A stretch of DNA of 51,180 nt, taken from NCBI GenBank assembly GCA_947627215.1, contig CANQVD010000028.1:1-51180 (forward strand), given 5' to 3'. The notes under the pieces were generated by a model. That model ran no database searches. It was not told the DNA's origin and saw only the letters and a program-made list of their open reading frames with translations. The DNA is from an uncultured Eisenbergiella sp. Lineage in GTDB: Bacteria > Bacillota > Clostridia > Lachnospirales > Lachnospiraceae. Within the stretch, counting starts at the first letter, position 1. Each line of letters starts with the position of its first letter. Made by a program: the position numbers and the translations under genes. Positions 27,912-47,000 of this stretch are shown here, piece after piece.

Positions 27912-28019
27912 TCAGCCCTCCTCCCGCATCAGCTCCAGATAATCGCTCTCATCCGCGAACAGGCGGTAGCTGCCGTCCACATAGCCCATATAACCCTCAT
28001 TCACATAGTAGCCCTTCAT
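27912..28019 (-). CDS. 35-residue protein with Gly/Tyr motif
   Basis: A short reading frame from ATG 28019, five bases after AAGGAGGT, encodes 35 residues starting MKGYYVNEGYMGYVDG and ending MREEG. The Shine-Dalgarno is among the best in the window, and the sequence is like small proteins I recall from other Lachnospiraceae (GYMGYVDG-x-Y-x-LF). The acidic and aromatic content and lack of a hydrophobic helix suggest a soluble peptide. Function unknown. It points away from the ABC-F gene and towards the DUF5688-like gene. Confidence 0.7.
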   Translation of the reverse strand: MKGYYVNEGYMGYVDGSYRLFADESDYLELMREEG

Positions 28020-28138
28020 GCCGTACCTCCTTTTCCAAACGCCGGCCTCCTTCATCTGCCGGTCGGCCCTGCCGTTTCCTTTTTCGATTTCAGTATCCCG
28101 CTTTTGGTGTCCCATAGAACGTACTTTATCTTTTCCCC

Positions 28139-28168
28139 TTGAAATCGCCCGGACTTTATGGTTATAAT
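28139..28168 (+). promoter_or_regulatory. Promoter of the ABC-F operon
   Basis: TTGAAA (28139-28144), an 18-base spacer and a perfect TATAAT (28163-28168) give a start near 28175 and a leader of about 105 bases before the ABC-F gene. Confidence 0.75.
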
Positions 28169-28279
28169 GATGGATGGCCGCATCGGGGGCTTTTCGTTTT
28201 TGTACCGGCGAAAAAGCGCCGCGATCGCCGCCCTGCCGCCCTGTGTTTTTGTCACCCTGAAAGGAAATGCGTTTTTACC

Positions 28280-29917
28280 ATGATAAGTGCGAACAATGTC
28301 ACCTTACGTCTGGGCAAGAAGGCCCTGTTTGAAGACGTGAACATCAAATTCACGGAAGGCAACTGCTACGGCATCATCGGCGCCAACGGCGCCGGGAAGT
28401 CCACCTTCCTGCGGATCCTCTCCGGCCAGCTCGAGACCACCTCCGGCGACGTGGTCATGACGCCCGGCCAGCGCATGAGCGTGCTGGAACAGGATCACTT
28501 CAAATACGACGAATTTCCCGTGATGGATGTGGTCATCATGGGCAACGCCCGCCTTTATGAAATCATGAAGGAAAAGGACGCGATTTACGCCAAAGAGGAT
28601 TTTTCCGATGAGGACGGCATCCGCGCCTCCGAGCTGGAGGCGGAATTCGCGGAGCTGGACGGCTGGAACGCGGAATCTGACGCCGCCACTCTGCTGAACG
28701 GGCTCGGCATCGACGAAGGCCTGCATAACAGCCTGATGAAGGATTTGAACGGCAGCGAAAAGGTCAAGGTCCTGCTGGCCAGGGCGCTGTTCGGCAATCC
28801 GGACATTCTGCTCCTGGACGAGCCCACCAACCACCTGGATCTGGATGCCATCGACTGGCTGGAGGAATTTCTCATCAATTTTGAAAACACGGTCATCGTG
28901 GTCTCCCACGACCGCTACTTTTTAAATAAGGTATGTACCTATACCGCGGATATCGATTACGGCAAGATCACGCTCTACGCCGGCAACTACGATTTCTGGT
29001 ACGAATCCAGTCAGCTTCTGATCCGCCAGATGAAAGAGGCCAACCGGAAAAAGGAGGAAAAGATCAAAGAGCTCCAGGAATTCATCTCCCGCTTCTCGGC
29101 CAATGCCTCCAAATCCAGGCAGGCCACGTCCCGGAAACGGGCTCTGGAAAAAATCCAGTTGGACGAGATCAGGCCCTCCAGCCGAAAGTATCCCTATATC
29201 GACTTCCGTCCGGACCGGGAGATCGGCAATGAAGTGCTCACCGTCACCAACCTGAGCAAGACCGTCAACGGAGTAAAGGTGCTGGACAACATTTCCTTCA
29301 TCGTCGGCCACGACGACAAAATCGCCTTTGTGGGCGGCAACGAACAGGCCAAAACCGTGCTGTTCTCCATCCTCGCCGGCGAAATGGAGCCGGACAAAGG
29401 CAGCTATAAATGGGGCATCACCACGTCGCAGGCCTATTTTCCCAAGGATTCCACGGCGGAATTCGACAACGACTACACCATCGCGGAATGGCTCACCGGC
29501 TACTCTCCCGTCAAGGACGTGACCTATGTCCGCGGCTTTCTGGGAAGAATGCTCTTTGCGGGCGAGGACGGCGTGAAAAAGGTTCGCGTGCTCTCCGGCG
29601 GCGAAAAGGTCCGCTGCCTGCTCTCCAAAATGATGATTTCCGGCGCCAACTGTCTGATCCTGGACGAGCCCACCAATCATCTGGACATGGAATCCATCAC
29701 CGCTCTGAACAACGGGCTGATCAAATTCCCCGGCGTGGCGCTTTTCTCCTGCCATGACCATCAGTTCGTGCAGACCACGGCCAACCGGATCATGGAAATC
29801 CTGCCGGACGGCACCCTGATCGACAAGATCACCACCTATGACGAATACCTGGCCAACGACGAAATGGCGAGAAAGCGCACGGTCTACACTGCGCACGTGG
29901 AAGAGGACGAGAATTGA
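28280..29917 (+). CDS. ABC-F family ATPase (YkpA/YbiT-like)
   Basis: 545 residues from ATG 28280; the Shine-Dalgarno AAAGGA is weak and rather distant. Two ABC ATPase domains are joined by the linker of ABC-F proteins. The first has Walker A GANGAGKS near 40 and LLLDEPTNHLDL near 180. The second has a degenerate Walker A, GGNEQAKTV, near 355, then VLSGGEKVRCLLSKMM and LILDEPTNHLDMES. There are no membrane segments. ABC-F proteins act on the ribosome, not in transport. The atypical second Walker A is seen in this subgroup. The PHP gene overlaps its stop. Confidence 0.93.
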   Translation: MISANNVTLRLGKKALFEDVNIKFTEGNCYGIIGANGAGKSTFLRILSGQLETTSGDVVMTPGQRMSVLEQDHFKYDEFPVMDVVIMGNARLYEIMKEKDAIYAKEDFSDEDGIRASELEAEFAELDGWNAESDAATLLNGLGIDEGLHNSLMKDLNGSEKVKVLLARALFGNPDILLLDEPTNHLDLDAIDWLEEFLINFENTVIVVSHDRYFLNKVCTYTADIDYGKITLYAGNYDFWYESSQLLIRQMKEANRKKEEKIKELQEFISRFSANASKSRQATSRKRALEKIQLDEIRPSSRKYPYIDFRPDREIGNEVLTVTNLSKTVNGVKVLDNISFIVGHDDKIAFVGGNEQAKTVLFSILAGEMEPDKGSYKWGITTSQAYFPKDSTAEFDNDYTIAEWLTGYSPVKDVTYVRGFLGRMLFAGEDGVKKVRVLSGGEKVRCLLSKMMISGANCLILDEPTNHLDMESITALNNGLIKFPGVALFSCHDHQFVQTTANRIMEILPDGTLIDKITTYDEYLANDEMARKRTVYTAHVEEDEN

Positions 29918-30792
29918 AAACGGTAGATCTGCATGTGCATTCCAATAAATCGGACGGCAGCTTTTCTCCCGCCGGGCTGGTGGAGCTGGCCCTGCAAAAG
30001 GGACTGAGCGCCTTCGCGCTGACGGACCATGACACCACGGCGGGACTGGAGGAGGCTGTCGCCTGCGGGGCCCAAAAGGGAATCGAGGTGATTCGCGGCA
30101 TCGAATTCTCCACCTCCTACCGCCCCGCTCCCGGCGCGGCCGAAAAGGACATCCACATCGTAGGGCTCTTCATCGACGAAAAAGCGCCCGCGTTCCGGCA
30201 GCATATCACGGAATTTGTGGAAGCCCGCGTCCGGCGCAACCGGATCATGTGTGACAGGCTGGCGGCGGCCGGCATCGATATCAGCTATGAAAAGCTGACA
30301 GATGCCTTCCCGGACTCCGTCATCACCAGAGGGCACTACTCCCGCTATCTGTATGAGCATGGCTATGTGCGCACGCTTCGGGAGGCCTTCGACAAATATC
30401 TGGGGGACCATACGCCCTATTTCGTTCCCAGGGAAAAGATCACGCCCGCGCAGGCCGTTTCCCTGATCCTGGAGGTGAAGGGAATCCCGGTGCTGGCCCA
30501 TCCCACCCTGTACCATCTGGAGGAGGGCGCGCTTACGGCGCTGATCCGGAGCCTGAAGGACATCGGGCTGGCGGCGATGGAAACCGTCTATTCCACCTAC
30601 AGCGCCGCAGAAACCGGCCAGATGCAGCAGTTGGCCGCCCGGTTCGGTCTGCTGCCCTCCGGCGGCTCGGATTTTCACGGGAAAAGCAAACCGGGGCTGG
30701 AAATGGGCACGGGCTACGGAAATCTTTTCGTTCCGGAAAGCGTTCTGACCGCGCTGAAGGAAAAACGCAGCGAGCTGTTCCGGCTCACCTGA
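29914..30792 (+). CDS. PHP-domain phosphoesterase, TTG start
   Basis: 292 residues from TTG 29914, which overlaps the TGA of the ABC-F gene (TTGA). AGAGGA lies upstream, so translation is probably coupled. Metal-binding motifs of the PHP fold are present: DLHVHSNKSDG at the start, LTDHDT near 40, GIEFS near 68, and GGSDFHGKSKPG near 250. Proteins of this class (TrpH/YciV-like) hydrolyse 3',5'-nucleoside bisphosphates or short RNA. The exact substrate is not known here. A Cof-type HAD phosphatase follows 55 bases downstream. Confidence 0.9.
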   Translation: MKTVDLHVHSNKSDGSFSPAGLVELALQKGLSAFALTDHDTTAGLEEAVACGAQKGIEVIRGIEFSTSYRPAPGAAEKDIHIVGLFIDEKAPAFRQHITEFVEARVRRNRIMCDRLAAAGIDISYEKLTDAFPDSVITRGHYSRYLYEHGYVRTLREAFDKYLGDHTPYFVPREKITPAQAVSLILEVKGIPVLAHPTLYHLEEGALTALIRSLKDIGLAAMETVYSTYSAAETGQMQQLAARFGLLPSGGSDFHGKSKPGLEMGTGYGNLFVPESVLTALKEKRSELFRLT

Positions 30793-30847
30793 CGAGGGGC
30801 CGCACAGATCGCCTTTTTACGGAGAATCAGAAGAAAGGAAAGCTTTC

Positions 30848-31663
30848 ATGTCTTACAAGATCCTGTTCACCGATATGGACGGCACGCTGCTGGACAGCGG
30901 CAAGCAGATCTCTCCCGCCCTTCTCTCCCTGCTGCAAAGGCTGACCGCTTCCGGAGGACGCCTGGTGCTTTCCACCGGCCGGACCGTCAGCAGCATCCGG
31001 AAGGTCATCGAGCGCACCGGCCTCTTCTTTCCGGAAATGCTCATCATCGCCGCCAACGGAAACGCCGTCTACGACTGGGACCGGGAACAGTATCTGGTGA
31101 ACAAAACGGTGCCGCTTTCCATGGCCGGGGAGATCGTTTCCATGGCCGACCGCTATGGTCTGCACATCCAGACCTATACGGACACCCATGCGGTCTGTCA
31201 TAAAAAAACGCCGGAATCCCTGTTTTACCACAGGGGAACCGGCATGGATTTTCTTTATGCGGACGACATCATGCGCCTTTGCGACAAGCCGCCCTGCAAG
31301 CTGTTGGCCATCGATCTGAAGGACCGTTCAAGGCTCTCCCTGCTGCAGCGGGACGTTCTGGAGCGCTTCGGCGACACGCTGACGGCCATGTTTTCCTGCG
31401 ACGAATACCTGGAAATCTTCGACAAAACCGCCGGAAAAGGCAGCGCGGTGCGTTTCGTCTGCGATCACCTGCACATTCCCGCACGGGAGACCGTGGCCGC
31501 GGGGGACGCGGAAAACGATATTTCCATGCTGCAGGCCGCCGGCATCGGCGTCGCCATGGCCAACGCCGCACCCGAAGTAAAGCGAAACGCCGATTTCATC
31601 ACACAGCAGGACAACGACCACGACGGACTGGCGGAGGTGCTGCACCGGTATTTCGGGCTGTAA
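30848..31663 (+). CDS. Cof-type HAD sugar-phosphatase-like hydrolase
   Basis: 271 residues, ATG 30848 after GAAAGGAAAG. All four HAD motifs are intact: DMDGTLLDS near 10 (two Asp), STGRT near 43, the lysine in GKGSAVRF near 200, and AGDAENDISML near 220. Cof-type members dephosphorylate sugar phosphates, flavin or PLP precursors; the substrate cannot be told from sequence. It is the third gene of the rightward ABC-F-PHP-HAD operon. The 100-base gap after it holds no clear terminator. Confidence 0.92.
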   Translation: MSYKILFTDMDGTLLDSGKQISPALLSLLQRLTASGGRLVLSTGRTVSSIRKVIERTGLFFPEMLIIAANGNAVYDWDREQYLVNKTVPLSMAGEIVSMADRYGLHIQTYTDTHAVCHKKTPESLFYHRGTGMDFLYADDIMRLCDKPPCKLLAIDLKDRSRLSLLQRDVLERFGDTLTAMFSCDEYLEIFDKTAGKGSAVRFVCDHLHIPARETVAAGDAENDISMLQAAGIGVAMANAAPEVKRNADFITQQDNDHDGLAEVLHRYFGL

Positions 31664-31762
31664 ACGGCCCGGCAAAAATCCGCCGGACACGCCGTCCGTT
31701 CCGCCGGGCAAAAGGCCTGTGCGATACAGTCCTTCGTCCGTCCCTTCCCACCGCTCCTTCGT

Positions 31763-32014
31763 CTACCCTTCCACGATCAGATACCGGCCGTCTCCCACAT
31801 CGAATACCTCCGCCGCCTCCAGGATATCGCCGCAGCCGCCCGTATCGACGCCTTCTTCCTCGAAATACGCCGCCACATCCTGCGCGGAATCCGCTACCAC
31901 CGCCATGCAGTCCTCCAGAAATTCTTCCGCTTCCTCCGGCGTGGAAGCCACGTCCTCCCGGAAAAGCTGTCCCTGTTTTTCCAGAAAACACCGCAAGACC
32001 CTTTCATCAAACAT
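31763..32014 (-). CDS. Small acidic protein of unknown function
   Basis: 83 residues, ATG 32014 after AGGGAGGC. Strongly acidic, mostly helical, with a short C-terminal segment (VFDVGDGRYLIVEG) that could form two beta strands. Two cysteines (CF near 9, DCM near 36) and a third in GGCG do not form a known motif. I do not recognise the family. It follows the GH29 gene by 43 bases on the same strand and is probably the last gene of that run. Confidence 0.7.
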   Translation of the reverse strand: MFDERVLRCFLEKQGQLFREDVASTPEEAEEFLEDCMAVVADSAQDVAAYFEEEGVDTGGCGDILEAAEVFDVGDGRYLIVEG

Positions 32015-32057
32015 GCTTCCGCCTCCCTGTGTCCCTGCGGCCCAACGCGCCGCCGGC

Positions 32058-33497
32058 TCAATATACGCCGACGAACGCCAGAACAGGCGCCACCCGCGCG
32101 TCCGTGATCCGCACGATCAGTTCCTTCGTCCGCAGGCCGTTCAGCGGCACGATCTTCCTGTGCCCGATGACCGTACAGCTCTCGAATTCGGTTTCCCCGC
32201 CCTCCGCGTTCTCATAGCTGACCGTGAAGGACTCCACCCGCTGGCTGAACCGGATCTGTTCCTTCAATACCAGATATTCCAGCTTCTGCTCCTCCTCCCA
32301 GCGCAGCCTGACGGTGAGCGCTCTCTGCCCCTCCGGATTTTCAAAATATGTATCGTAGTTTTCCAGGCGCACATTTTCGATCGTGCAGCCGTTTTTGTCC
32401 ACCGCGGGCAGAGAATCGAGCCTGGCCTGCTCCGCCAGATTCCGCGCGAAGGCCTCCCGGAGAAAAGCGCCCAGCCCGGAAAGCGCCTTCACGTCGTTTT
32501 CATGAAACAGCCCCTCCGGCGTCGGCGGGAGGTTCAGAAGCATGTTGGCATTGCCGCCCACCGTCTTTAAGTAGATCTCCTTCAGATTCTCAGGGCTTCT
32601 CACCTGGCCGTCCTCCTCCGGATGGTAAAACCAGCCGGGCCGGATGGAAAGGTCCGTCTCCGCCGGATAAAAAATCAGATCCGGCTCATTTTGCAGCTTC
32701 CGCCGGCTGCCGAGATCCAGCAGGGTGCTGTCAATGCCCCGTTCGCGGAACTTCCTGTCGTCCTCCTTCTGACTCCTGTCGGCGACCCGTTCCGCACTGG
32801 CCATGTCCGCGGGCACCACGCTCCACTCGCTGGGCCGGGTCTTTCCGGCCTCGTTGCCGCACCAGCGGATGTCCGGCCCGCAGCCGAAAATACAGGCTCC
32901 CGGCTGCAGCCTGCGCACCGTTTCAAAATACCGCTCCCAGTCGTAGCGCTGCACCTTCCCGTTGGGGCCCTCCCCGCAGGCGCCGTCCAGCCAGACCACG
33001 CAGATCTCGCCGTAGCCGGTCAGCAACTCTTCGAGCTGGCGGACATAATAATCGTCATAGGGCTTTCCCTGGCCGTACAGCGGACAGTTCCGATCCCAGG
33101 GAGACAGGTACACTCCGAACTTAAGCCCGTATTCCCGGCAGGCATCGGACACCTCCCGCACGATATCGCCCTTTCCGCCCCGATAGGGGGAATTTTTCAC
33201 ACTGTGCTCCGTGTACCGGCTGGGCCACAGACAGAAACCGTCATGGTGCTTGCAGGTCAGGATGATTCCCCGCATGCCGCCGTCCTTCGCGGCCGCGGCC
33301 CACCGCCCCGCATCCATTTTCACCGGATTGAAGATGGATTCCGATTCGTCGCCCAGCCCCCACTCCCTTCCAGTATAGGTGTTCACGGTAAAATGGACAA
33401 AACAGAGAAATTCCAGCTCCTGATAGGCGATCTGCCTGGGATGCGGCACCGCGCTGATCAGGCGCAGATCCTCCTTTATGCCCTCATACATTTCCAT
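32058..33497 (-). CDS. GH29 family alpha-L-fucosidase
   Basis: 479 residues from ATG 33497 (MEMYEGIKED), with GGGGGAG upstream. The GH29 barrel shows CKHHDGFCLWPS near 82-93 and the probable nucleophile Asp171 in VVWLDGACGE. A C-terminal beta domain covers about 340-479. There is no signal peptide, so it should hydrolyse imported fucosylated oligosaccharides in the cytoplasm. The gene lies 22 bases after the HAD-BTAD fusion gene, so the regulator and this enzyme are probably made from one transcript. No transporter or other fucose gene is seen here. Confidence 0.9.
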   Translation of the reverse strand: MEMYEGIKEDLRLISAVPHPRQIAYQELEFLCFVHFTVNTYTGREWGLGDESESIFNPVKMDAGRWAAAAKDGGMRGIILTCKHHDGFCLWPSRYTEHSVKNSPYRGGKGDIVREVSDACREYGLKFGVYLSPWDRNCPLYGQGKPYDDYYVRQLEELLTGYGEICVVWLDGACGEGPNGKVQRYDWERYFETVRRLQPGACIFGCGPDIRWCGNEAGKTRPSEWSVVPADMASAERVADRSQKEDDRKFRERGIDSTLLDLGSRRKLQNEPDLIFYPAETDLSIRPGWFYHPEEDGQVRSPENLKEIYLKTVGGNANMLLNLPPTPEGLFHENDVKALSGLGAFLREAFARNLAEQARLDSLPAVDKNGCTIENVRLENYDTYFENPEGQRALTVRLRWEEEQKLEYLVLKEQIRFSQRVESFTVSYENAEGGETEFESCTVIGHRKIVPLNGLRTKELIVRITDARVAPVLAFVGVY

Positions 33498-33519
33498 CCT
33501 TCTCCCCCGTTTTTCGCCG

Positions 33520-35496
33520 TCACCGCAGCACGGCCGTATCGTAGCGGACCCCGTTGCGGATCCCGTATTCCCGTTCCAGATAATAGGCAATCCGCTTCTG
33601 CGCGTATACGGAATTGATCAGGTCGCAGTTCACCAGCAGGATCAGGAACTGATGCTCGCTGTAGCGGGTGAAGCAGTCGCTCCTGCGCAGATTCCGGAGG
33701 ATGGCCGTCTGCAGCTTCCCGCTCAGGCTGTCCAGCTTTTTCTGGGACAACGGCACGCCCTTCTTTTCGTCCAGCATCGTGCAGAGCAGAAGCGTGGCAG
33801 GCGCCTCCCCCTCCCGGCTGTTGCGCATCATCTGGATACAGATGCCCTCAAAATTGGGCCAGGTACAGTAATAGGTTCCCTGGACGCCCAGCGCGGCGTC
33901 GGACAGCTCCTTTTGCAGATCCTCGATCTTCCCGTCCGTGTTGCGGATCCGGTCGCGCAGCAGATCGTGCCGTTCCCGCAGTTCATCCGTCAGATCGTTA
34001 TGCATTTCATCCGCGTAGAAGGACGCCATCTTGCGGTAAAAATCCTGCGCCTCCTGAAACCGCTCCAGCGCGATCAGGCAGTCCAGGCATTCCAGCTCCC
34101 ATTCCTCGTGCGGATAAAGGCGCGCCGCGTTGCTGCACACCTCCAGCATATCCTCATACCGGCCCTCCTGCTTCAGGATCGTACAGAGCTGACGCAGCGC
34201 CGTATAATACATCTCCTTATACGCCACGCGCAGCTCTCCCGCCCAGCCGTCCGCCGGCAGGCGCGGCAGGAAATCGCCCTTATACTGCGCGCACGCCTCC
34301 ATCAGATAGCGGAGCTTCTGCTTGTCCTCCTTTTCCGCGGCGGCCTGCCCCAGCGCCCGCTTGAAGCGACCTGTATCCGTATCCAGCAAAAGCTCGCCGT
34401 CCCAGTAATAATAGCTCTTCTTGATCACGATGTAGGCAGCCGGAGGCAGAATGGAGTCCTCGATCATCTTGCGCAGACGGAATACCGTCTGCTTCATATT
34501 GTTGGTCTTGTCCGTCACCTTTCCCTTGCCGTAAAGCGCTTCCTGCAGCTTCTCCCGGATCACGCCGTCCTCCTGCGCATGGAGAAGCATTTCCAGAAGC
34601 TGCATGGGCTTACTGGAGGTGCTGTTGTCCAGTGTGACCTCCATACCGTTTAAGGTAATCCGGAAATTTCCGAAAAACGTGACCTCCAGGCCGTTCTGAC
34701 GCTCCACCCGGTTCAGACGGCGCAGGATCTGCCAGACGCCCTTTTTCTCCCAGGACGGGCAGATGAAACGGGCGGCCTCCTTGACATAACGGGGCGCATC
34801 CTCCACGGCATAGCTTTCGCCGGCCGCCTGCAGCATGTCCACATCCGACGCTCCGTTGCCGAACGCCACCGTCTCCGACCGGGTGATCCCGTACTGACTC
34901 TGAAGGGCCAGCACAGCATTACCCTTACCGGCGGAAAGATCCGTAAACTCCACCCAGTTCTCCCCGTCGATACAGACGTTCAGCCGGTCCTTCCAGGTGG
35001 GGACCAGAATGGCCTCCGCCAGAGCGCGGATGCCGCTCGCCCGGTATGCCGAGACCCGCAGCGCCTGCGGCTTTTCCGACAGCACGTCCTTCATGATCCG
35101 CATCGAACAGCGATACCCGTTTCCCAAAAGGCTTAGGAAATCCCGGTCCGCGGTCTCCACAAGGCTCTCCTCCTGCGTGGAAACCACGATCTCGCAGTCC
35201 CGGAACCCCCTGAGCTGCTCCACCAGCGCGGTCACATATTCCTGCCGCATCAGCACCGTCAGAATATCCCGGTCCCGATACCGGACATGCGCGCCGTTTT
35301 CCGCGATATAAACGATCCGGTCCTCCACATCCTTAAACAGGGCCGCAATGCCCTGCTGCTGCCGGCTGCCGGCGCAGGCGAACAAAACCCCCCGGTCCGT
35401 GAGCCTCCTGATCTCCTCCGCGACCTCCGGACCGACTTCCGGTGCGGCTTCCTGAACCAGGGTCCCGTCTACATCTGTCACGATTAATTTGATCAT
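33520..35496 (-). CDS. HAD phosphatase-BTAD regulator fusion with degenerate GGDEF-like tail
   Basis: 658 residues from ATG 35496, with AGGAG upstream. Residues 1-265 form a Cof-type HAD domain: D8 and D10 in DVDGT, S44, K191 in AGKGNA, and a changed motif IV, GNGASD (214-218), where GDGxND is usual. Residues 270-505 look like a SARP/BTAD-type regulator, with a winged-helix part (LEVTFFGNFRITLNG to VIKKSYYYWD) and then a helical BTAD/TPR-like part. Residues about 540-650 resemble a GGDEF fold, but SEHQF replaces GGDEF, so no cyclase activity is expected. The frame is continuous. It precedes the fucosidase gene. Confidence 0.85.
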   Translation of the reverse strand: MIKLIVTDVDGTLVQEAAPEVGPEVAEEIRRLTDRGVLFACAGSRQQQGIAALFKDVEDRIVYIAENGAHVRYRDRDILTVLMRQEYVTALVEQLRGFRDCEIVVSTQEESLVETADRDFLSLLGNGYRCSMRIMKDVLSEKPQALRVSAYRASGIRALAEAILVPTWKDRLNVCIDGENWVEFTDLSAGKGNAVLALQSQYGITRSETVAFGNGASDVDMLQAAGESYAVEDAPRYVKEAARFICPSWEKKGVWQILRRLNRVERQNGLEVTFFGNFRITLNGMEVTLDNSTSSKPMQLLEMLLHAQEDGVIREKLQEALYGKGKVTDKTNNMKQTVFRLRKMIEDSILPPAAYIVIKKSYYYWDGELLLDTDTGRFKRALGQAAAEKEDKQKLRYLMEACAQYKGDFLPRLPADGWAGELRVAYKEMYYTALRQLCTILKQEGRYEDMLEVCSNAARLYPHEEWELECLDCLIALERFQEAQDFYRKMASFYADEMHNDLTDELRERHDLLRDRIRNTDGKIEDLQKELSDAALGVQGTYYCTWPNFEGICIQMMRNSREGEAPATLLLCTMLDEKKGVPLSQKKLDSLSGKLQTAILRNLRRSDCFTRYSEHQFLILLVNCDLINSVYAQKRIAYYLEREYGIRNGVRYDTAVLR

Positions 35497-35611
35497 TTCT
35501 CTTCTCCTGTCTGCCGTATGGCCGTGCCGGCCCCTTCTCGTTTCCTGTATCTTCCCTATAGCAAAAGCGGCTTCCGCGGCTCTGCCGTCCGGAGCATAGA
35601 TCACCGCTTTT

Positions 35612-36232
35612 TCACACCAGTTTCCTCTGATGCAGCTCCTGGTAGAGTCTGCCCACCGGCAGCCCCACCACATTGTTATAATCTCCTTCAATGCCCCGGA
35701 TGAAGGCGGCGCACCGTCCCTGAATGCCGTAAGCGCCCGCCTTGTCCATCGGCTCGCCCGTCCCCACATAGGCGGCTATCTCCCCGGCCGTCATGGGGTA
35801 GAAGTCCACACGGGTGCGCTCGTAAAAGGAAAACCGCCCTGGCCTCCCGTCCGGCTGTCCGCCCTGCCAGAGCGCCGTCACGCCGGTATAGACGAAGTGG
35901 CTTCTTCCCTGCAGAAGCGCCAGCATCCGACAGGCGTCCTCCTCTCCGGCGGGCTTTCCAAGGATCATGCCGTCACATGCGACCACCGTATCCGCGCCGA
36001 TGACCAGAAGCCCCTCGGCCGCCCCGTTCAGCCGTTCATACACCTCCGCCGCCTTCTGCGCGGAGAGCTGCTTCACCAGTTCTCCCGGTGCCGCCGCATC
36101 TGCCCTTTCCTCCCGCGTGCCCGGACATACCGCAAAGCGCAGGCCGATCTGCGCGAGCAGTTCCCGCCTTCTGGGCGACGCGGAGGCCAGCACGATCCTG
36201 TAGGCCTGCTCCATTTCTTCGTCTCCGTTCAT
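35612..36232 (-). CDS. maf: Maf-like nucleoside triphosphate pyrophosphatase
   Basis: 206 residues from ATG 36232, which overlaps the ppk stop (ATGA). A second ATG six codons on (36214, MEQAYRI) has GGAG upstream and is also possible. The signature LASASPRRRELL is at the N-terminus, with GADTVVACDG near 80 and the KAGAYGIQG motif near 165. Maf proteins hydrolyse non-canonical or UTP/CTP-type nucleotides to the monophosphate and affect cell division. The gene order ppx-ppk-maf is continuous. Confidence 0.94.
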   Translation of the reverse strand: MNGDEEMEQAYRIVLASASPRRRELLAQIGLRFAVCPGTREERADAAAPGELVKQLSAQKAAEVYERLNGAAEGLLVIGADTVVACDGMILGKPAGEEDACRMLALLQGRSHFVYTGVTALWQGGQPDGRPGRFSFYERTRVDFYPMTAGEIAAYVGTGEPMDKAGAYGIQGRCAAFIRGIEGDYNNVVGLPVGRLYQELHQRKLV

Positions 36233-38430
36233 TCTTCCGCATGGGTTTCCGGCACAAAGCGCCTCGTATCCCGAATCTCCTCTTTCCGGTTTCCCAGCCG
36301 GATGGCCTGCCGACAGAAATCCTCCTGGGCGCAGAAGGACTCCCTGCCGCGCCGGTCAACCTTTTCATAACTGCCGTCAGGCTGCAGGATATGGGCCTTG
36401 GTGTTGTCCTTCATCTGCCCCGCCAGAATATATTTCAGCTTTTCCTGCAGATCCGGATCCTCCACGGGGAACAGGATCTCCACCCGCCGCTCCAGGTTCC
36501 GGGGCATCCAGTCGGCGCTGCTGCAGTAATACTCCGGCTTCCCGTTGTTTTCAAAATAAAAGATACGGGCGTGCTCCAGAAAATTGCCCACGATGGAACG
36601 CACCGTGATATTTTCGCTCACCCCGGGAATCCCCACCTTCAGGCAGCAGATGCCGCGCACGATCAGGTCAATCTTCACGCCGTCGCAGCTCGCTCCGTAG
36701 AGCGCCGCGATCACCTCCTGATCGCAGAGAGAATTCATCTTCGCCACAATGCGGGCGTTCTTCCCCTCCCTGGCGTTCCGGGCCTCCCGGCCGATCAGAT
36801 ACAAAAACCGGTCCTTCAGCCAGAGGGGCGCCAGACTCAGACGGTTCCAGGAGCGGGGCTCCGAATAGCCGGAAAGCATGTTGAACACCGCCGTGGCGTC
36901 CTCCCCGATGGCCTCACTGGCCGTCATCAGGCCCACATCCGTATACAGCTTGGCGGTGGCGTCGTTATAATTGCCCGTGCCCAAATGCACATACCGGCGG
37001 ATCCCGTCATCCTCCCGGCGCACCACCAGCGTGATCTTGCTGTGCGTCTTCAGGCCCACCAGCCCGTAGATCACATGGCAACCGGCCTGCTCCAGCTTTC
37101 TGGCCCATACGATGTTGTTCTCCTCGTCGAACCGGGCCTTCAGCTCCACCAGCACGGATACCTGCTTGCCGTTCTCCGCAGCCTGCGCCAGCGCCGCGAT
37201 GATGGGGGAATTGCCGCTGACGCGGTACAGGGTCTGCTTGATCGCCAGCACATCGGGGTCCCGGCTGGCCTGCCGGATGAAATCCACCACCGGCGCGAAG
37301 GTCTGATAGGGATGATGCAGCAGGATATCCTTCCGGCGGATGATGTCAAAAACTGTGCCCTCCTGCAGGAACTCCGGCACCGGCTGCGGTTCATAGCGAC
37401 GACTCTTCAGCCGTTCAAAGCCGTCAAGCCCGTACACCTTCATGAGGAAGGTCAGATCCAGCGGACCGTCGATCCGGAAAATATCCTCGTCCGCCACCTG
37501 AAGCTCCTTCTTCAGCAGGCGGATCAGACGCTTATCCGCCCCCTCCTCGATCTCCAGCCGCAGCGCGCGTCCCCAGCTTCGCTTTTTGATCTGCTTTTCG
37601 ATCTCCAGAAGCAGATCCTCCGCCTCATCCTCGTCGATGGCCAGATCGGCGTTGCGCGTGATCCGGAACGGATGGGCGCAGACCACATCGTAATTCAGGA
37701 AAAGCCGGCTGATATTGCGCTCGATGATCTCCTCCAGCAGGATGACCGTCATGCCCTCCGTCTCTCCGTCGGAAGGGATCGCCACCACCCGCGGCAGCAC
37801 GGAAGGGACCTGCACGGTAGCGAAGTCCAGCGCGTCCTTCCCTTCCCTGTCCTTTTTCCCGGCCTTCTTTTCGCCCTTTTCGGAGGTCTCCCCTTTTTCC
37901 GCCTTCTCCCCCTTTTTATCCAGCAGCGCGCCGATGTTCAGAGATTTGTTGCGGATCAGCGGAAAGGGCCTGGAGGAATCCACGGCCATGGGCGTCAGCA
38001 CCGGATAGACGTTTTCCATGAAATATTCGTCCACGTACCGTCCCTGCTCCTTCGTGAGCTGCTCGTGGCGCTCCACGAAGCGCAGTCCGTTCTCCTTCAT
38101 CTGCGGCAGAAGCATCCGGCTGTAGGTGGAATATTCCAGCGCCACGAAATCGTGCAGAAGCCCCGACAGCATAGAAAGCTGTTCCTTCGGGGAAAGGCCG
38201 GCGATGTCCTTTTTCGTATAACCGGCATTCACCATATCCACCAAAGACCCGATGCGGACCATGAAAAACTCATCCAGATTGGAGGCCGTTATGCTCAGAA
38301 ATTTCAGCCGCTCAAACAGCGGAATCTGCCTGTCCCTGGCCTCCGACAGCACTCTTTTGTTGAACAGCAGCCAGCTCTCCTCCCGGTTGGTATACAGCTC
38401 GACCCTGAAAAAATCCTGATTTCCCTCCAC
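36229..38430 (-). CDS. ppk: Polyphosphate kinase 1
   Basis: 733 residues from GTG 38430, with GAGGG seven to eight bases upstream. It makes polyphosphate from ATP. The N-domain (LLFNKRVLSEARD, NLDEFFMVRIG) is clear, as is the catalytic region. That region has the histidine motifs GLKTHSKITLV, expected to be phosphorylated, and YVHLGTGNYNDATAKLY. A lysine/glutamate-rich insertion (about 165-200, with EKGETSEKGEKKAGKKD) interrupts the head domain and is unusual. It follows ppx by 26 bases and overlaps maf, so synthesis and breakdown of polyphosphate are encoded together. Confidence 0.96.
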   Translation of the reverse strand: MEGNQDFFRVELYTNREESWLLFNKRVLSEARDRQIPLFERLKFLSITASNLDEFFMVRIGSLVDMVNAGYTKKDIAGLSPKEQLSMLSGLLHDFVALEYSTYSRMLLPQMKENGLRFVERHEQLTKEQGRYVDEYFMENVYPVLTPMAVDSSRPFPLIRNKSLNIGALLDKKGEKAEKGETSEKGEKKAGKKDREGKDALDFATVQVPSVLPRVVAIPSDGETEGMTVILLEEIIERNISRLFLNYDVVCAHPFRITRNADLAIDEDEAEDLLLEIEKQIKKRSWGRALRLEIEEGADKRLIRLLKKELQVADEDIFRIDGPLDLTFLMKVYGLDGFERLKSRRYEPQPVPEFLQEGTVFDIIRRKDILLHHPYQTFAPVVDFIRQASRDPDVLAIKQTLYRVSGNSPIIAALAQAAENGKQVSVLVELKARFDEENNIVWARKLEQAGCHVIYGLVGLKTHSKITLVVRREDDGIRRYVHLGTGNYNDATAKLYTDVGLMTASEAIGEDATAVFNMLSGYSEPRSWNRLSLAPLWLKDRFLYLIGREARNAREGKNARIVAKMNSLCDQEVIAALYGASCDGVKIDLIVRGICCLKVGIPGVSENITVRSIVGNFLEHARIFYFENNGKPEYYCSSADWMPRNLERRVEILFPVEDPDLQEKLKYILAGQMKDNTKAHILQPDGSYEKVDRRGRESFCAQEDFCRQAIRLGNRKEEIRDTRRFVPETHAEE

Positions 38431-38456
38431 GGTGCGATCCCTCTTTTCCTTTTCTT

Positions 38457-39995
38457 TTACAGCGCGCGCTGCTGCCGGATGACGGGCCGCACGTTATAGA
38501 CCTCTTCAAAGAAATCGGCCCGGCGGTCGAACAGTCCCTTCTCCAGCGTGATGTCCTCCACCGCGCTCACCGTCAGCATGAGCTGCCCGTCCCTGACCGC
38601 GGCGCGGATATCCTTGCAGCGCTGCTTGTGGCTGCGGTCCAGCGCGTTGGACAGCCGCAGGATGGCGGCCAGCTTGGCGATGACCAGATATTCCTCCCGG
38701 TCCATTCTGCCGCCCCGGGCGTTCTCCATCTCATAGTCAAACTCCATATGGTTGAATTTGACCACATTGGCCACAATCTCCCGCTCCCGGTGGGACAGGC
38801 CGATGATCTCCGTGGCCATGATGATGGCGTAGGAGCACTCCGCCAGACTGAGCATGCTGATGTATTTTCCGCAGTCGTGCAGCAGCGTGGCGATCCGCAG
38901 AAGGAGCCTCTCCCGCTGCCCCATCCCGTGAATTTTCTTCATGCTGTCAAAGATCGTCAGCGCGATCTTCTCCAGCGTCTCCGCCCGGCGCTTGCTTCCC
39001 ATATACCGCTTGCTGATCCCCCTCGCGCAGGTGATGATGTCCTGTTCAAAATCGTGGGGCTGGGAAATCAGCCTGTGCTTTTCCGCATACTCGTAAGCGA
39101 TGCCGTCACACAGCGTCACCCCCGGCGCCCAGATGAGCTTTGCGTCCGTCAGCACCGCCACCTGCCGCACGATCGCAGAGGCGATCCGCAGAAGCGGCGC
39201 CTTTTCCTCCGGCAGATCGTAGCGCCGGACGATCTCCTCATCCGTATGCCCGTTCAGGAAATCCAGAAACGTATAGAAGGAGGCGCAGTCCACAAAGCCC
39301 GCATTCTGATCCGGGGAAAGCTGTTTCCGGATCAGCGCGGAAATATAGTCATCCACCACGATGATGTTTTCAATGGTCCTGTCCTTTAAATACATCTTCC
39401 GGAACACGGAAAGCTGCGCCATCAGCAGCTCCTCCAGAAGCTCCGGATACCGGGAAGGGCGCACGTTGATCCGGCGCATCTTCTCCTGCAGCCGCAGCAC
39501 GCCCAGCCGCAGATTGCAGGAGGCGGACAGCTTATCCTTGTCGAACAGCGAAAGCTGGATGCTCCCGCCGCCGATGTCCACCACCAGCGTCCCCTTTTCG
39601 ATGATCTTCGCAAAGCCTTCTCCTCTTGAGGCGATGGATTTGTAATCCAGAAAGCGCTGTTCCGAATTGCTCAGCACCTCGATCCGCACCCCGGTCCGCT
39701 GGGCGATCTGATCCAGCACCAGATCCTGGTTGCTGATCTCCCGGATGGCGCTGGTGCCGTAGGCCTTATACTCCTCCGTGCGATAGCCCTTCATGACGGA
39801 AACGAACTCCCGGAGCACGCCGCACAGCTCCTCCAGCTTTTCGTGTCCCAGCTTTCCGGTGCCGTAGGTGGAACTGCCCAGGTCCAGGCGGTTGCTGACA
39901 CAGTCCACCTCCCGGATCCCATAGGACTTCGCCATGGTAAAAATTTTCAGGGTCTGTTCATAGGACCCCACATCGATTGCGGCAAACGTTTTCAT
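38457..39995 (-). CDS. ppx: Ppx/GppA-type exopolyphosphatase with HD-like C-domain
   Basis: 512 residues. The ASKHA fold motifs are AAIDVGSY at the N-terminus, AYGTSAIREISNQ near 90 and VVDIGGGSIQLSLF near 140. The C-terminal half carries an HD-type motif, LLHDCGKYISM, near 375. It releases phosphate from polyphosphate or from pppGpp; sequence alone does not separate the two. It lies between the DUF815 ATPase (27-base gap) and ppk (26-base gap), as expected for polyphosphate turnover. Confidence 0.93.
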   Translation of the reverse strand: MKTFAAIDVGSYEQTLKIFTMAKSYGIREVDCVSNRLDLGSSTYGTGKLGHEKLEELCGVLREFVSVMKGYRTEEYKAYGTSAIREISNQDLVLDQIAQRTGVRIEVLSNSEQRFLDYKSIASRGEGFAKIIEKGTLVVDIGGGSIQLSLFDKDKLSASCNLRLGVLRLQEKMRRINVRPSRYPELLEELLMAQLSVFRKMYLKDRTIENIIVVDDYISALIRKQLSPDQNAGFVDCASFYTFLDFLNGHTDEEIVRRYDLPEEKAPLLRIASAIVRQVAVLTDAKLIWAPGVTLCDGIAYEYAEKHRLISQPHDFEQDIITCARGISKRYMGSKRRAETLEKIALTIFDSMKKIHGMGQRERLLLRIATLLHDCGKYISMLSLAECSYAIIMATEIIGLSHREREIVANVVKFNHMEFDYEMENARGGRMDREEYLVIAKLAAILRLSNALDRSHKQRCKDIRAAVRDGQLMLTVSAVEDITLEKGLFDRRADFFEEVYNVRPVIRQQRAL

Positions 39996-40022
39996 GCCGG
40001 TTCCCCCTGATTTTTCCCGCGC

Positions 40023-41315
40023 TCATGCCCTTCCGAGCAGGTGATCCACGAACTGCTGCGCCGTGCGGCCGGAAAGACCGCCGTGGGAAAGCTCCCAGCG
40101 GTTCGCCTGCAAAAGCAGCTCCTCCCGCGGCATATCGATCCCGTTTCTTTCGGCGAGACCCTCCACGATCTGTTCAAACTGCCGTTTATCCGGCGAGCCG
40201 AAATAGATGGTGACCCCGAAGCGGGAAACCAGCGAAAGCTTTTCCTGCACCGTATCGTTGGTGTGCAGCTCTTCGTCCCGCTCCTCCTTGTCCCGAAAGC
40301 TCTCCCGGATCAGGTGCCGCCTGTTGGAGGTGGCGTAAATCAACACATTCTGCGGCTTTTTCTCCAGCCCGCCCTCGATCACGGCCTTCAGATATTTATA
40401 CTCCACCTCAAATTCCTCGAAGCTCAGGTCGTCCATATAAATGATAAATTTATAATTCCGGTTCTTGATCCGGGCGATCACATCGTTCAGGCTCCTGAAC
40501 TGATGCTTATAGATCTCGATGACGCGCAGCCCCCGCTCATAATATGCGTTGGCAATGGCCTTGATGCAGGAGGATTTTCCCGTGCCGGCGTCCCCGAACA
40601 GCAGACAGTTGTTGGCCCTGCGCCCGCTCACGAAGGCCTCCGTATTCTCCAGAAGCTTCTGCTTCTGAAGCTCATAGCCGATGAGATCGGACAGCTTCAC
40701 GTGAGCAATGTTCAGGATCGGCTCAATCACCGCACCGGAACCCTCTCCGACGACCCGGAACGCCTTGTGCAGGCCGAATCTGCCCACACCGTATTCCCGG
40801 TAAAAATCCGTCAGCATGTCCTTCATCTCTTCCGGCGTGGCCGCCGTCCGGAAACGCTGCGCCAGCGCGCAGATCCGGTCCCGGATCCGGGTATTGTACA
40901 CCCGGCTCTCCTGGGCATTGCCCTCATAGGAAAGCGCCAGATCGAAATCCCGCACCTCCAGCCGGTCCGCCAGGCCCGCGAAATCATGATCGAACAGCTC
41001 CTTGAACAGAGCGATATCGTGCAGCACGGCACGGTTCACGCTGCCCTCCACCGCGCCCCGGATTTCACAGGCCCGGCTGTAGCTGTTCTCATCGTTCACC
41101 AGCAGGTCCGTCAGGTAACAATGCCAGAGGTTGCCATAAAAGCCGTATTTTCCGGCCATTTCCAGCAGGCGGTGCATACAGGAATAGAAAAGTCCCCGCA
41201 TCGCCTCCGCATCCTCCGCTTTCCCTCCCCCGCTCTCCATCAGCCTGACCATATCGTTCAGCAGGCCGCCGTCCGCAAAATCCCTGTACAGGATCAGTTC
41301 TTCCGTTTTCCTCAT
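40023..41315 (-). CDS. DUF815-type AAA+ ATPase
   Basis: 430 residues from ATG 41315 (MRKTEELILYRDF). A longer start at 41378 is possible but lacks a good ribosome binding site. The helical N-terminal half is followed by an ATPase core with Walker A GDAGTGKSS (about 250) and Walker B FIIYMDDLSFEE (about 305). The arginine-rich TSNRRHLIRESF follows, and the C-terminal lid ends with SGRTAQQFVDHLL. The function of this family is not established. It sits between pheA and ppx in the leftward run. Confidence 0.88.
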   Translation of the reverse strand: MRKTEELILYRDFADGGLLNDMVRLMESGGGKAEDAEAMRGLFYSCMHRLLEMAGKYGFYGNLWHCYLTDLLVNDENSYSRACEIRGAVEGSVNRAVLHDIALFKELFDHDFAGLADRLEVRDFDLALSYEGNAQESRVYNTRIRDRICALAQRFRTAATPEEMKDMLTDFYREYGVGRFGLHKAFRVVGEGSGAVIEPILNIAHVKLSDLIGYELQKQKLLENTEAFVSGRRANNCLLFGDAGTGKSSCIKAIANAYYERGLRVIEIYKHQFRSLNDVIARIKNRNYKFIIYMDDLSFEEFEVEYKYLKAVIEGGLEKKPQNVLIYATSNRRHLIRESFRDKEERDEELHTNDTVQEKLSLVSRFGVTIYFGSPDKRQFEQIVEGLAERNGIDMPREELLLQANRWELSHGGLSGRTAQQFVDHLLGRA

Positions 41316-41402
41316 ATCCGCAGCGTCTGTCCGCCTTTCCTTCCGTGCAAACCGCTTCCCGCCGGCGCCGGCCCGCATGGGAGCGCGCCGCCCCGGCGCT
41401 TC

Positions 41403-42527
41403 TTAATAATTGCCCAGTACCTTCAGGTTCATGGCCTCCTCGCGCAGGCCGCGCAGCGCGTTTTTCACCCCGCTGTCCGCCAGGTTGCCCTCAAATTCCA
41501 CAAAAAACCGGTATTCCCATGCGCGCCCCTCGATGGGACGGCTCTCGATCTTGGTCATGTTCAGATTGTTGTATATGATATGGGACAGCAGATGGTAAAG
41601 GGAGCCGCTTTCATGACGCACCTCAAAGCAGATGCTCACCTTTTTCGCATCCTTCCGGAAGATCTTCTGATTCGTCACGATGATGAACCGGGTGGAGTTG
41701 GAGGAAACGTTGTTCACCGGCTTCTCCAGCACCGAAAGCCCGTACACCTGCCCCGCGTACTCGCTGGCGATCGCGGCCTGATCCTTCCTGCCCTCCTGCG
41801 CCACCTTTCTGGCCGCGAACGCATTGTTGGGCATGGAAATCTGCTGCCACGCCCTCCCGCTCAGATAACGGGAGCTCTGCATCAGCGACTGGGGATGGGA
41901 ATAGACCGTGCGCACATCCGACAGCTTCGCGCCCGGCACCCCCAGCAGGCAGTGCTCGATCCGAAGGATCTGTTCCCCGACGATATAATTTTCAAATTCC
42001 ACCAAAAGATCGTAGATCTCGCTGACGATGCCGGCCGTGGAGTTTTCGATGGGCAGCACGGCGAAATCCGCGTTTCCCTCGTCGATGGCGCTCATGGCAT
42101 CCCGAAAGGTATCCACATGGACGCTCTCGATCTGCTCGCCGAAAAAGCGCACCATCGCCGCCTGGGAATAGGCGCCCTCCGCCCCCTGGAACACCACCCG
42201 CAGCTTTCCCGACTCCAGCTTCTCCACCGGCAGAAACGGCAGCCTTCCGGACCGCCCCTCCTGCGACATGAGCTGATACTGCAGCTTCCGGCTCATGGCC
42301 ATGATCTGCTCGAACAGCTCGGTGACCGCGTGACGGTTGAACGCGTCGTGCGTCATATCGCGCACGCTGGCCAGCTTCGCTTCCTCTCTGGCCCGGTCGA
42401 AAACCTTCCGGCCCGTTTCTATCTTATATTCGCCCACCTGACGGCAGATCGCCATCCGTTCCTCATAAAGCCTGACAAGCTGACCGTCGATCGCGTCCAG
42501 TTGCGCCCTGAGCTGCTCCAGATCCAT
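41403..42527 (-). CDS. pheA: Bifunctional chorismate mutase/prephenate dehydratase
   Basis: 374 residues, ATG 42527 after CGGAGG. It turns chorismate into prephenate and then phenylpyruvate in phenylalanine synthesis. Chorismate mutase occupies about 1-90 (LRAQLDAIDGQLVRLYEERM). Prephenate dehydratase spans about 108-285 (VFQGAEGAYSQAA and the SNSTRFIIV motif). The ACT domain covers about 295-374, with the ESRPIEGRAWEYRFFVE feedback-binding motif. It heads the leftward run and has the repeat-rich leader at 42556-42690. Confidence 0.95.
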   Translation of the reverse strand: MDLEQLRAQLDAIDGQLVRLYEERMAICRQVGEYKIETGRKVFDRAREEAKLASVRDMTHDAFNRHAVTELFEQIMAMSRKLQYQLMSQEGRSGRLPFLPVEKLESGKLRVVFQGAEGAYSQAAMVRFFGEQIESVHVDTFRDAMSAIDEGNADFAVLPIENSTAGIVSEIYDLLVEFENYIVGEQILRIEHCLLGVPGAKLSDVRTVYSHPQSLMQSSRYLSGRAWQQISMPNNAFAARKVAQEGRKDQAAIASEYAGQVYGLSVLEKPVNNVSSNSTRFIIVTNQKIFRKDAKKVSICFEVRHESGSLYHLLSHIIYNNLNMTKIESRPIEGRAWEYRFFVEFEGNLADSGVKNALRGLREEAMNLKVLGNY

Positions 42528-42555
42528 ACTTTCCTCCGGCGTGTTTTTTCATTCC

Positions 42556-42690
42556 GATTCTCGGGAAGCCTCGCAATTCGCTGTGCGAATCGCGAGGCAG
42601 CGGAAGATCGCTGTGCGATTCTCGGGAAGCTTCGCAATTCGCTGTGCGAATCGCGAAGCAGCGGAAGATCGCTGTGCGATCTTCCTTCAT
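42556..42690. repeat. Tandem 61 bp hairpin repeats upstream of pheA
   Basis: Unit 1 (42556-42616) and unit 2 (42617-42677) are identical except for two bases, C to T and G to A. These face each other in the stem GCCTCGC-A-ATTCGC/GCGAAT-C-GCGAGGC, so the pair is kept. A third fragment starts at 42678 and completes the hairpin GGAAGATCGC-TGT-GCGATCTTCC. A TAAAAT (about 42694-42699, minus strand) may be the -10 of pheA, which would put the repeats in its mRNA leader. Confidence 0.85.
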
Positions 42691-42737
42691 TTTAACACAG
42701 AATGTATAAAAAAAGAAGTTAGACGAATACTATTTTT

Positions 42738-43154
42738 ATGAAAAAAATTTTGAAAGATTTCGTCCGCTGCGGCGTGCTGGGATGGTGCATGGAAATCCTC
42801 GTCACTTCCTTTGAGGCGTTCCGCCGGCGGGAACCGACGCTCACCGGCCATACCTCCGTTTTCATGTTTCCCATTTACGGAAGTGCCTGCCTGCTGCGTC
42901 CCCTTTGCTGTCTGCTCTCCGGCCTGCACTGGATCGTCCGCGGCCTGATCTACATGAGCTGCATCTTCGGCGCGGAATATGCCAGCGGACGCCTGCTGGA
43001 GAAAAAAGGGCGCTGTCCGTGGCGCTATCACCGGGCCGGATGGAATGTCAGGGGCGTGATCCGGCTGGACTATGCGCCCGCCTGGTTTCTCACGGGTCTG
43101 CTGTTTGAACAGGTCATCCTGGAAAGGGGGAAATTTTTTTCAAAAAAAGATTGA
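42738..43154 (+). CDS. CmpB-like membrane protein (PF06541-type)
   Basis: 138 residues, ATG 42738; I see no strong Shine-Dalgarno. The sequence GHTSVFMFPIYGSACLLRP near 38-56 is typical of the putative ABC-transporter type IV (CmpB) family. Hydrophobic stretches lie near 10-25, 48-62, 68-85 and 115-130. The function of these proteins is not established despite the name. The tRNA-Leu promoter begins inside its last codons. It is transcribed away from pheA. Confidence 0.8.
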   Translation: MKKILKDFVRCGVLGWCMEILVTSFEAFRRREPTLTGHTSVFMFPIYGSACLLRPLCCLLSGLHWIVRGLIYMSCIFGAEYASGRLLEKKGRCPWRYHRAGWNVRGVIRLDYAPAWFLTGLLFEQVILERGKFFSKKD

Positions 43155-43179
43155 CATTCTCCGCCATATCCACTATACT
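43151..43179 (+). promoter_or_regulatory. Promoter of tRNA-Leu
   Basis: Perfect TTGACA (43151-43156), 17 bases, TATACT (43174-43179), with the start about 7 bases before the tRNA. The -35 overlaps the stop codon of the CmpB-like gene. Confidence 0.85.
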
Positions 43180-43191
43180 TTATCTTGTCGC

Positions 43192-43275
43192 GCAGGAATG
43201 GCGGAATTGGCAGACGCGTACGGTTCAGGTCCGTATGGTAGTAATACCATGAGAGTTCAAGTCTCTTTTCCTGCA
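43192..43275 (+). tRNA. tRNA-Leu(CAG)
   Basis: An 84-base tRNA with acceptor GCAGGAA/TTCCTGC, anticodon stem TACGG/CCGTA, loop TTCAGGT (anticodon CAG, decoding CUG) and a long variable arm, as class II tRNA-Leu has. CCA is not encoded. Confidence 0.96.
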
Positions 43276-43280
43276 CTTCA

Positions 43281-46028: not shown

Positions 46029-46063
46029 AAAAAGCGGACGGAATCAAACAGATCCCATCCGCT
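46029..46063 (-). terminator. Terminator overlapping the end of the GGDEF gene
   Basis: On the minus strand AGCGGATGG pairs with CCGTCCGCT, followed by TTTTTC. The upstream arm includes the last codons and the stop of the GGDEF gene. Confidence 0.75.
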
Positions 46064-46922: not shown

Positions 46923-47000
46923 GGTACGTTCCCCCGCACATCGGCCCGACGCCGCCGGACCCCTTGAAAGCCTCACAGATCACCCCGGCCGGGGAAGATC

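Follow-up and report, generated by a model that had tools for sequence, protein, structure and literature searches.

The 51,180-nucleotide stretch of DNA analysed here (hereafter the window), from an uncultured Eisenbergiella sp., carries a gene for a 658-residue protein in which an N-terminal HAD-IIB phosphatase domain precedes a SARP-type regulator. Our tentative reading, held with rather less than even confidence, is that a phosphatase was captured in one genus of Lachnospiraceae as the sensor of such a regulator, replacing the regulator's usual partner protein, and that in one sub-lineage it has become a pseudoenzyme receptor. The fusion is regarded as a variant of the SARP-type regulators which offers an instructive evolutionary series, rather than as a new kind of system.

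Gene and domain architecture

The frame lies open over 658 codons on the minus strand, with correct coordinates and a correct start (AGGAGAAGAGAA-ATG) behind a good ribosome-binding site. Its parts are as follows.

33520..35496 (-), HAD-SARP fusion gene of 658 aa, with stop codon; same 658-660 aa layout in six further genomes of the genus
34711..35496 (-), HAD-IIB domain, residues 1-262 (Pfam Hydrolase_3; NCBIfam TIGR01484; PDB 3dao)
34402..34689 (-), predicted winged-helix DNA-binding region, about residues 270-365 (Trans_reg_C and family profiles)
33964..34377 (-), BTAD domain, residues 374-511 (Pfam BTAD)
33523..33909 (-), degenerate GGDEF-like tail, about residues 530-658 (weak alone; the profile of the standalone family matches diguanylate cyclases)
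33646..33660 (-), SEHQF where GGDEF would stand, residues 613-617 (read directly)

The N-terminal part matches Pfam Hydrolase_3 at residues 5-258 (E 1.9e-36), its nearest solved structure by sequence being PDB 3dao (E 1.1e-30 across residues 1-259). Among the NCBIfam models, the fusion protein passes the cut-off for HAD-IIB (TIGR01484, 72.1 bits vs 41.8) and fails that for the Cof subfamily (TIGR00099, 100.9 bits vs 137), so that the "Cof-type HAD" of an earlier note on this DNA stands as a HAD-IIB domain and is slightly too strong in its subfamily name. The regulator part, made up of winged helix and BTAD, spans about residues 270-511, and its DNA-binding fold was assigned through sequence profiles: Trans_reg_C at residues 294-348 of the fusion protein reaches 26.0 bits, barely below the Pfam cut-off of 26.2, and BTAD at residues 374-511 passes (42.7 bits vs 22.1, E 9.4e-11). 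A full-length AlphaFold model built on six fused sequences had a mean pLDDT of 43, too poor for judging the DNA-binding fold. Only a trace of GGDEF is seen by Pfam in the fusion protein (12.4 bits, E 0.14, cut-off of 23.8 not reached), and the SEHQF previously read in its place does lie at the GGDEF position. The union of HAD and regulator-like part in a single frame, also claimed before, is borne out by the 658-aa open frame, the Pfam domains, and seven assemblies.

Distribution of the fusion and its junction

The genus, made up of Eisenbergiella-like Lachnospiraceae, was covered by 13 genomes, seven of which hold full-length matches to residues 1-658, with protein identities to the window of 100% (own genome), 82% (G407), 81% (G405), 69% (G318 and G406), 67% (G404), and 58% (G399). 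A further four genomes (G402, G403, G397, and G401) have an unfused HAD at the corresponding position; of the remaining two, G400 shows only a distant HAD and G398, an assembly 58% complete, only a weak short match. In a sample of 397 genomes of the family, the matches listed were full length only in G000 and G318, with HAD and regulator separate elsewhere; in a sample of 291 genomes of the class, searched at E up to 1e-25, the fusion appeared only in G000. No fusion outside the genus was found in these two samples of larger groups.

The earlier note had raised the question of whether the two halves are always separate in homologues, in which case an assembly or frame artefact in the window would be suspected. 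They are indeed separate genes in the other genera sampled, which favours such an artefact, but they are fused in seven separate assemblies at 58-100% protein identity, with an identical junction and no stops. An assembly artefact is thereby ruled out, and the chance of an artefact of either kind is negligible.

The junction joins two natural ends, since the four standalone HADs of the genus stop at positions matching residues 262-264 (about 275 in G403) and the regulator half aligns at full length with a family of standalone regulators (termed A3) from residue 266 onwards (hhalign: 388 columns, 33% identity, probability 100). A single chain is likely because the sole start codon near the junction shared by the six fused genes checked, ATG 298, sits within the winged helix and has no Shine-Dalgarno sequence. 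No remnant of the regulator was found beside the HAD in the four standalone-HAD genomes, the best match (E 0.002, L109) falling inside the ppk stretch.

The locus and the probable origin of the fusion

The fusion gene stands at the end of a conserved run of genes on the same strand, and a further phosphatase gene converges on it from the other side.

35612..36232 (-), maf, the co-oriented upstream neighbour (Pfam Maf, E 1.1e-60; conserved synteny)
36229-38430 (-), ppk (Pfam; synteny)
38457-39995 (-), ppx-like gene, presumably ppx from its sequence (synteny)
40023-41378 (-), DUF815 AAA ATPase (DUF815 match; synteny)
41403-42527 (-), pheA-like gene, which we take to be pheA (synteny)
30848..31663 (+), second HAD-IIB (Cof) phosphatase, converging neighbour (NCBIfam TIGR00099, 168.2 bits, above cut-off; synteny)

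The order pheA-ATPase-ppx-ppk-maf-HAD, with convergent had2-php-abc beyond, recurs in all 11 HAD loci of the genus, fused or not, apart from truncated ends. In addition, 40 stretches around the best listed HAD and regulator matches in the family were compared, 22 for the HAD and 18 for the regulator. With phmmer at E 1e-15, ppk was found near the HAD in 18 of the 22 (all except L045, L071, L076, and L077), 15 of these also having ppx and 11 maf; the ppx-ppk-maf neighbourhood is common to all seven fused genomes and to most of the standalone HAD relatives fetched. At E 1e-8, a regulator relative was present in none of the 22 HAD stretches and a HAD relative in none of the 18 regulator stretches. 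Since the ppx-ppk-maf-HAD locus is conserved and the halves are otherwise apart, the HAD is the resident and the regulator the newcomer that arrived behind it. On the simplest view, a single event within the genus would have linked the end of a complete resident HAD-IIB phosphatase to the start of a complete SARP-type regulator.

A regulator tree of 28 rows places all seven fused halves in one clade with 100/100 support, on a long stem. The HAD tree gives the within-genus order without resolution, fused G399 being closest by path to standalone G402, and the tree of neighbouring genes likewise pairs G402 with G399 (85/97); the latter does not rule out one clade of fused genomes (p 0.244), though it does not establish one either. 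These alignments are best explained by a single origin followed by loss, or by an unresolved branching order.

Co-transcription of the fusion gene with its upstream genes is likely, the gaps being short. Scans for promoters and terminators returned 5 and 11 sites against shuffled expectations of 3.3 and 9.2, none of which stands out, and no Rfam match was obtained in 28000-44000. Direct repeats of the SARP type (heptamers with an 11- or 22-bp period) were absent from a 400-base region upstream of pheA in both the window and L034, as well as from the 129 bases upstream of pheA in L035; two were counted in L032, two in L036, and one in L105, where single-base shuffles gave means of 0.5-0.6. In L033, the upstream sequence was too short for this comparison. 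Just upstream of pheA in the window, a tandem 61-bp repeat (42555-42676; two copies, 97%) with internal inverted repeats was observed.

Two further variations of the locus were seen among the related genomes. A HAD-IA-like gene lies between maf and the HAD gene at L034:7283-7981 (+) and at like places in L033, L035, L036, L106, and L109; it matches Pfam HAD_2 (L034 being the one scanned) and is absent from the window, L032, and L105, judging by their upstream sequences. Among the four fused genomes whose HAD is intact, three have a small putative helix-turn-helix gene after the fusion gene, each copy being preceded by a conserved promoter-like TGTAAC...ATAAATT stretch.

L034:10142-10369 (+), small putative helix-turn-helix gene
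L035:10053-10289 (+), small putative helix-turn-helix gene
L036:10154-10384 (+), small putative helix-turn-helix gene

The standalone regulator family and its partner protein

The assignment of the regulator half to the SARP type runs through the A3 family, because a profile built from six fused halves alone (A4) matched no AfsR or SARP structure in the PDB, its matches being to designed TPR proteins and to HslV, with weak E-values. The A3 profile matched AfsR (8hvr, E 6.6e-10), PhoB-type regulators (2.4e-5), and EmbR (2fez, E 0.0025), and its tail matched diguanylate cyclases (4urg, E 1.7e-5; 3ign, E 4.3e-5). When 16 A3 members were scanned with Pfam at E up to 0.1, BTAD was found in all 16, Trans_reg_C in 15, and GGDEF in 13. 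The GGDEF signature itself is absent from all 21 standalone regulators examined, in which YSxxQF or near forms (YNxxQF, YGKGQY, and FSPCQF) stand instead, as they do in all seven fused proteins. By these motifs, the degenerate tail is the norm of the regulator family and no mark of the fusion.

Two proteins with GGDEF were noted in passing. In G406, the product of L110:3242-4219 (-), which adjoins the standalone regulator relative, has a GGDEF domain followed by a second domain resembling the regulator tail (blastp E 2.7e-8). In the window, an intact RVGGDEF is encoded at 46044-46976 (-), 10 kb from the fusion gene, and this is the genome's only Pfam GGDEF match at E up to 0.001 in an assembly 97% complete.

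Of 21 standalone regulator loci examined, 20 from the family and one, in G406, from the genus, 18 have a conserved ORF of 150 aa beside the regulator (one copy, cut short, and that of L059 included), whereas in L061 the partner is found in frame at the C-terminus of the regulator and in L070 and L110 it is absent. The partner family carries a YRQNxTWQG motif and has members in L041, L046-L048, L051, L053, L055, L059-L061, L063, L065, L066, L068, L069, L072, L073, L013, and L016, and short copies of its second half occur in some genomes, such as G204. No clear Pfam match was obtained for it, the best being E 0.01 in two of 11 members. Type II secretion F and E proteins, an LPXTG pilin, and a VWA/SpaA surface protein are encoded near the regulators (among eight proteins scanned at four loci, one of these a fused-gene locus).

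The partner protein was found in none of the 13 genomes of the genus, nine of which are of high quality; the same model found a match in all nine control genomes, five of which had supplied rows to it. Its absence from these genomes would fit a HAD that took over whatever role the partner plays.

The HAD active site and its decay

The HAD motifs were aligned over 34 domains, 27 standalone and seven fused. D8, D10, K191, and D218 are invariant in all 34, and the motif I DxDGT and the motif III Lys are kept in 7/7 fused and 27/27 standalone domains. Two sites in the window depart from the rest.

35365..35370 (-), altered motif II, residues 43-44, GS for SG ([ST]G in 27/27 standalone, SG in 4/7 fused)
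34843..34860 (-), altered motif IV, residues 213-218, GNGASD for GDxxND (GDxxND in 27/27 standalone, 4/7 fused)

The alteration of motif IV reported in the earlier note is confirmed by this alignment, the window having FGNGASD where all 27 standalone relatives have FGDxxND. The change in motif II (GSR vs [ST]GR in the same 27) is a second active-site alteration, which that note did not contain. S/T43, D214, and N217 occur together in all 27 standalone HADs and in four of the seven fused ones. The other three form the window clade (the window, L112 of G407, and L113 of G405), in which D214 has become N and N217 has become S in all three members and S43 has become G in two. In the HAD superfamily, the motif IV Asp binds metal and the motif II Ser/Thr binds phosphate. 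These replacements make it probable that catalysis in the window clade is weakened or gone.

The fused proteins with an intact active site comprise G399, the most diverged of all, and three others. This leaves room for an active signalling enzyme, in which the HAD would hydrolyse a phosphorylated signal or dephosphorylate the regulator, turnover would set the regulatory state, and the window clade would be a derived exception. The loss of the motif IV Asp from three proteins whose regulator half is nonetheless strongly conserved speaks against it, and we consider this reading improbable.

The fate of the domain in the window clade was followed through its rate of change. Twelve intact relatives share 79 invariant HAD columns; the three window-clade proteins all keep 50 of these, and at least one of the three differs at the other 29. 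Between the window clade and an intact trio, the HAD is 56-61% identical and the regulator half 74-78%; within the intact trio, the corresponding values are 77-80% and 80-83%. On a seven-taxon tree, the branch lengths of the two halves are not proportional (2 delta lnL 66.5, 10 df, p 2e-10). The test gives p 0.006 with the six taxa other than G399 and p 0.026 with the four intact proteins alone; G399 drives part of the difference, and there it is the regulator half that is long. An acceleration of the HAD in the window clade is hence supported by these sequences, but not overwhelmingly.

Pairwise HAD dN/dS within the degraded trio, calculated with our own NG86 code, was 0.07, 0.14, and 0.27, all under 1, although nearly saturated synonymous sites (pS 0.40-0.75) make these ratios rough. 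On this measure, the HAD fold of the window clade seems still to be under selection. Set against the winged helix and BTAD, the HAD has the higher value in all three pairs (0.138 vs 0.045, 0.265 vs 0.073, and 0.070 vs 0.054), and therefore the slow loss of a useless HAD is also possible.

Such a loss belongs to a second alternative, a tethered bifunctional protein in which the HAD keeps its enzymatic job, the regulator works independently, and the fusion merely ties their expression, the enzyme of the window clade being unneeded and decaying. The intact active site in four of the seven fused proteins, the persistence of the HAD in its old locus, and its faster change with higher dN/dS in the window clade are all in keeping with this. 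It accords less well with the retention in that clade of a full-length HAD with D8, D10, K191, and D218 and a dN/dS under 1, or with the failure to find the regulator's usual partner in the genus. We regard it as unlikely, albeit as the alternative to be taken most seriously.

The fucosidase neighbour

Directly downstream of the fusion gene, as the earlier note had observed, lies a gene for a glycoside hydrolase.

32058..33497 (-), GH29 alpha-L-fucosidase (Pfam Alpha_L_fucos, E 3.8e-39; the start codon is our choice)

The gap between the two genes is 22 bases, given the ATG chosen at 33497. A dedicated switch for this fucosidase, sensing a fucose-derived phosphate, is suggested by the position of the GH29 gene just downstream on the same strand and by its occurrence at this place in all three fused genomes with a degraded HAD and in none of the four with an intact one. 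Those three genomes are a single clade, however, so the degraded HAD and the fucosidase may coincide through one event only; four of the seven fused genomes have no such neighbour; and relatives of the window fucosidase, at 59% identity, are placed elsewhere in G401 and G403. The link of the fusion to the fucosidase is accordingly weak, and the dedicated switch is very improbable. As the reason for the fusion, control of the fucosidase is not supported, the neighbourhood that the seven fused genomes have in common being ppx-ppk-maf.

Proposed mechanism and comparison with known systems

The reading which we prefer from the sequences, at about even odds, is that a SARP-type regulator acquired the HAD pocket as its input domain, probably through ligand binding rather than catalysis. 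In such a protein, a putative activator, the winged helix would bind promoter DNA and the HAD pocket would bind a phosphorylated metabolite, its open or closed state freeing or blocking the SARP unit, much as the SARP unit of AfsR is freed by ATP binding rather than hydrolysis. Hydrolysis of the ligand may persist in the four proteins with an intact HAD; the window clade, its catalysis probably weak or lost, would keep binding alone. Points on the other side are the winged-helix score just short of its cut-off, the failure of the A4 profile to match AfsR, the lack of SARP-like repeats upstream of pheA in the window, and the higher dN/dS of the HAD in the degraded trio. The phosphatase had been put forward as the sensor in the earlier note. 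A sensor role is the best-supported reading, and the sugar phosphate named there as ligand is guesswork based on membership of the HAD-IIB family.

AfsR of Streptomyces and EmbR of mycobacteria share with the fusion protein the order of winged helix (predicted in the latter) then BTAD, and the A3 profile matches both. The extra domain of EmbR is FHA. Neither of the two has the degenerate GGDEF tail, and the host here is a gut Lachnospiraceae. AfsR is the best precedent for the proposed mechanism: its SARP unit is held in check by C-terminal domains, a check lifted by the binding of ATP rather than by its hydrolysis (PMC10936776). Both proteins may have an additional domain that gates SARP activity through its ligand, a C-terminal NOD/TPR in AfsR and an N-terminal HAD-IIB phosphatase here. 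The closest comparison for the regulator half is with the A3 regulators of the Lachnospiraceae, which are homologous to it over their full length and have the same degenerate tail signature; they differ in standing alone, mostly beside the 150-aa partner and often near secretion/pilus-like or LPXTG pilus genes.

The HAD half is homologous over the whole domain to HAD-IIB sugar-phosphatase-like enzymes (3dao, 2hf2 SupH, 1rlm, and 1ymq BT4131) and keeps their nucleophile and Lys, but it is fused to a regulator and, in the window clade, altered in motifs II and IV. Eyes absent (EYA) is a eukaryotic HAD phosphatase which acts as a transcription co-activator and has no DNA-binding domain of its own; it resembles the present fusion in that a HAD phosphatase domain is built into a gene regulator, while its lineage and partners are unrelated. 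Among the titles listed in searches of an open-access library, which lacks most subscription papers, none concerned a HAD-BTAD fusion or a BTAD-GGDEF regulator. A search of viral_contigs for further relatives with which to deepen the alignment of the fusion returned none.

Implications

If the proposed reading is right, the genus presents a natural series in which an enzyme pocket turns into a regulatory sensor: unfused, fused and intact, and fused and degraded. Each of these three stages can still be found at this locus among living relatives, which would let the change of function be traced stepwise, and the output of the regulator would report whatever the HAD of the ppx-ppk-maf locus binds. 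The fusion also points to a little-known SARP-type family of the gut Lachnospiraceae, with a degenerate GGDEF tail, a partner protein, and pilus-type genes nearby.
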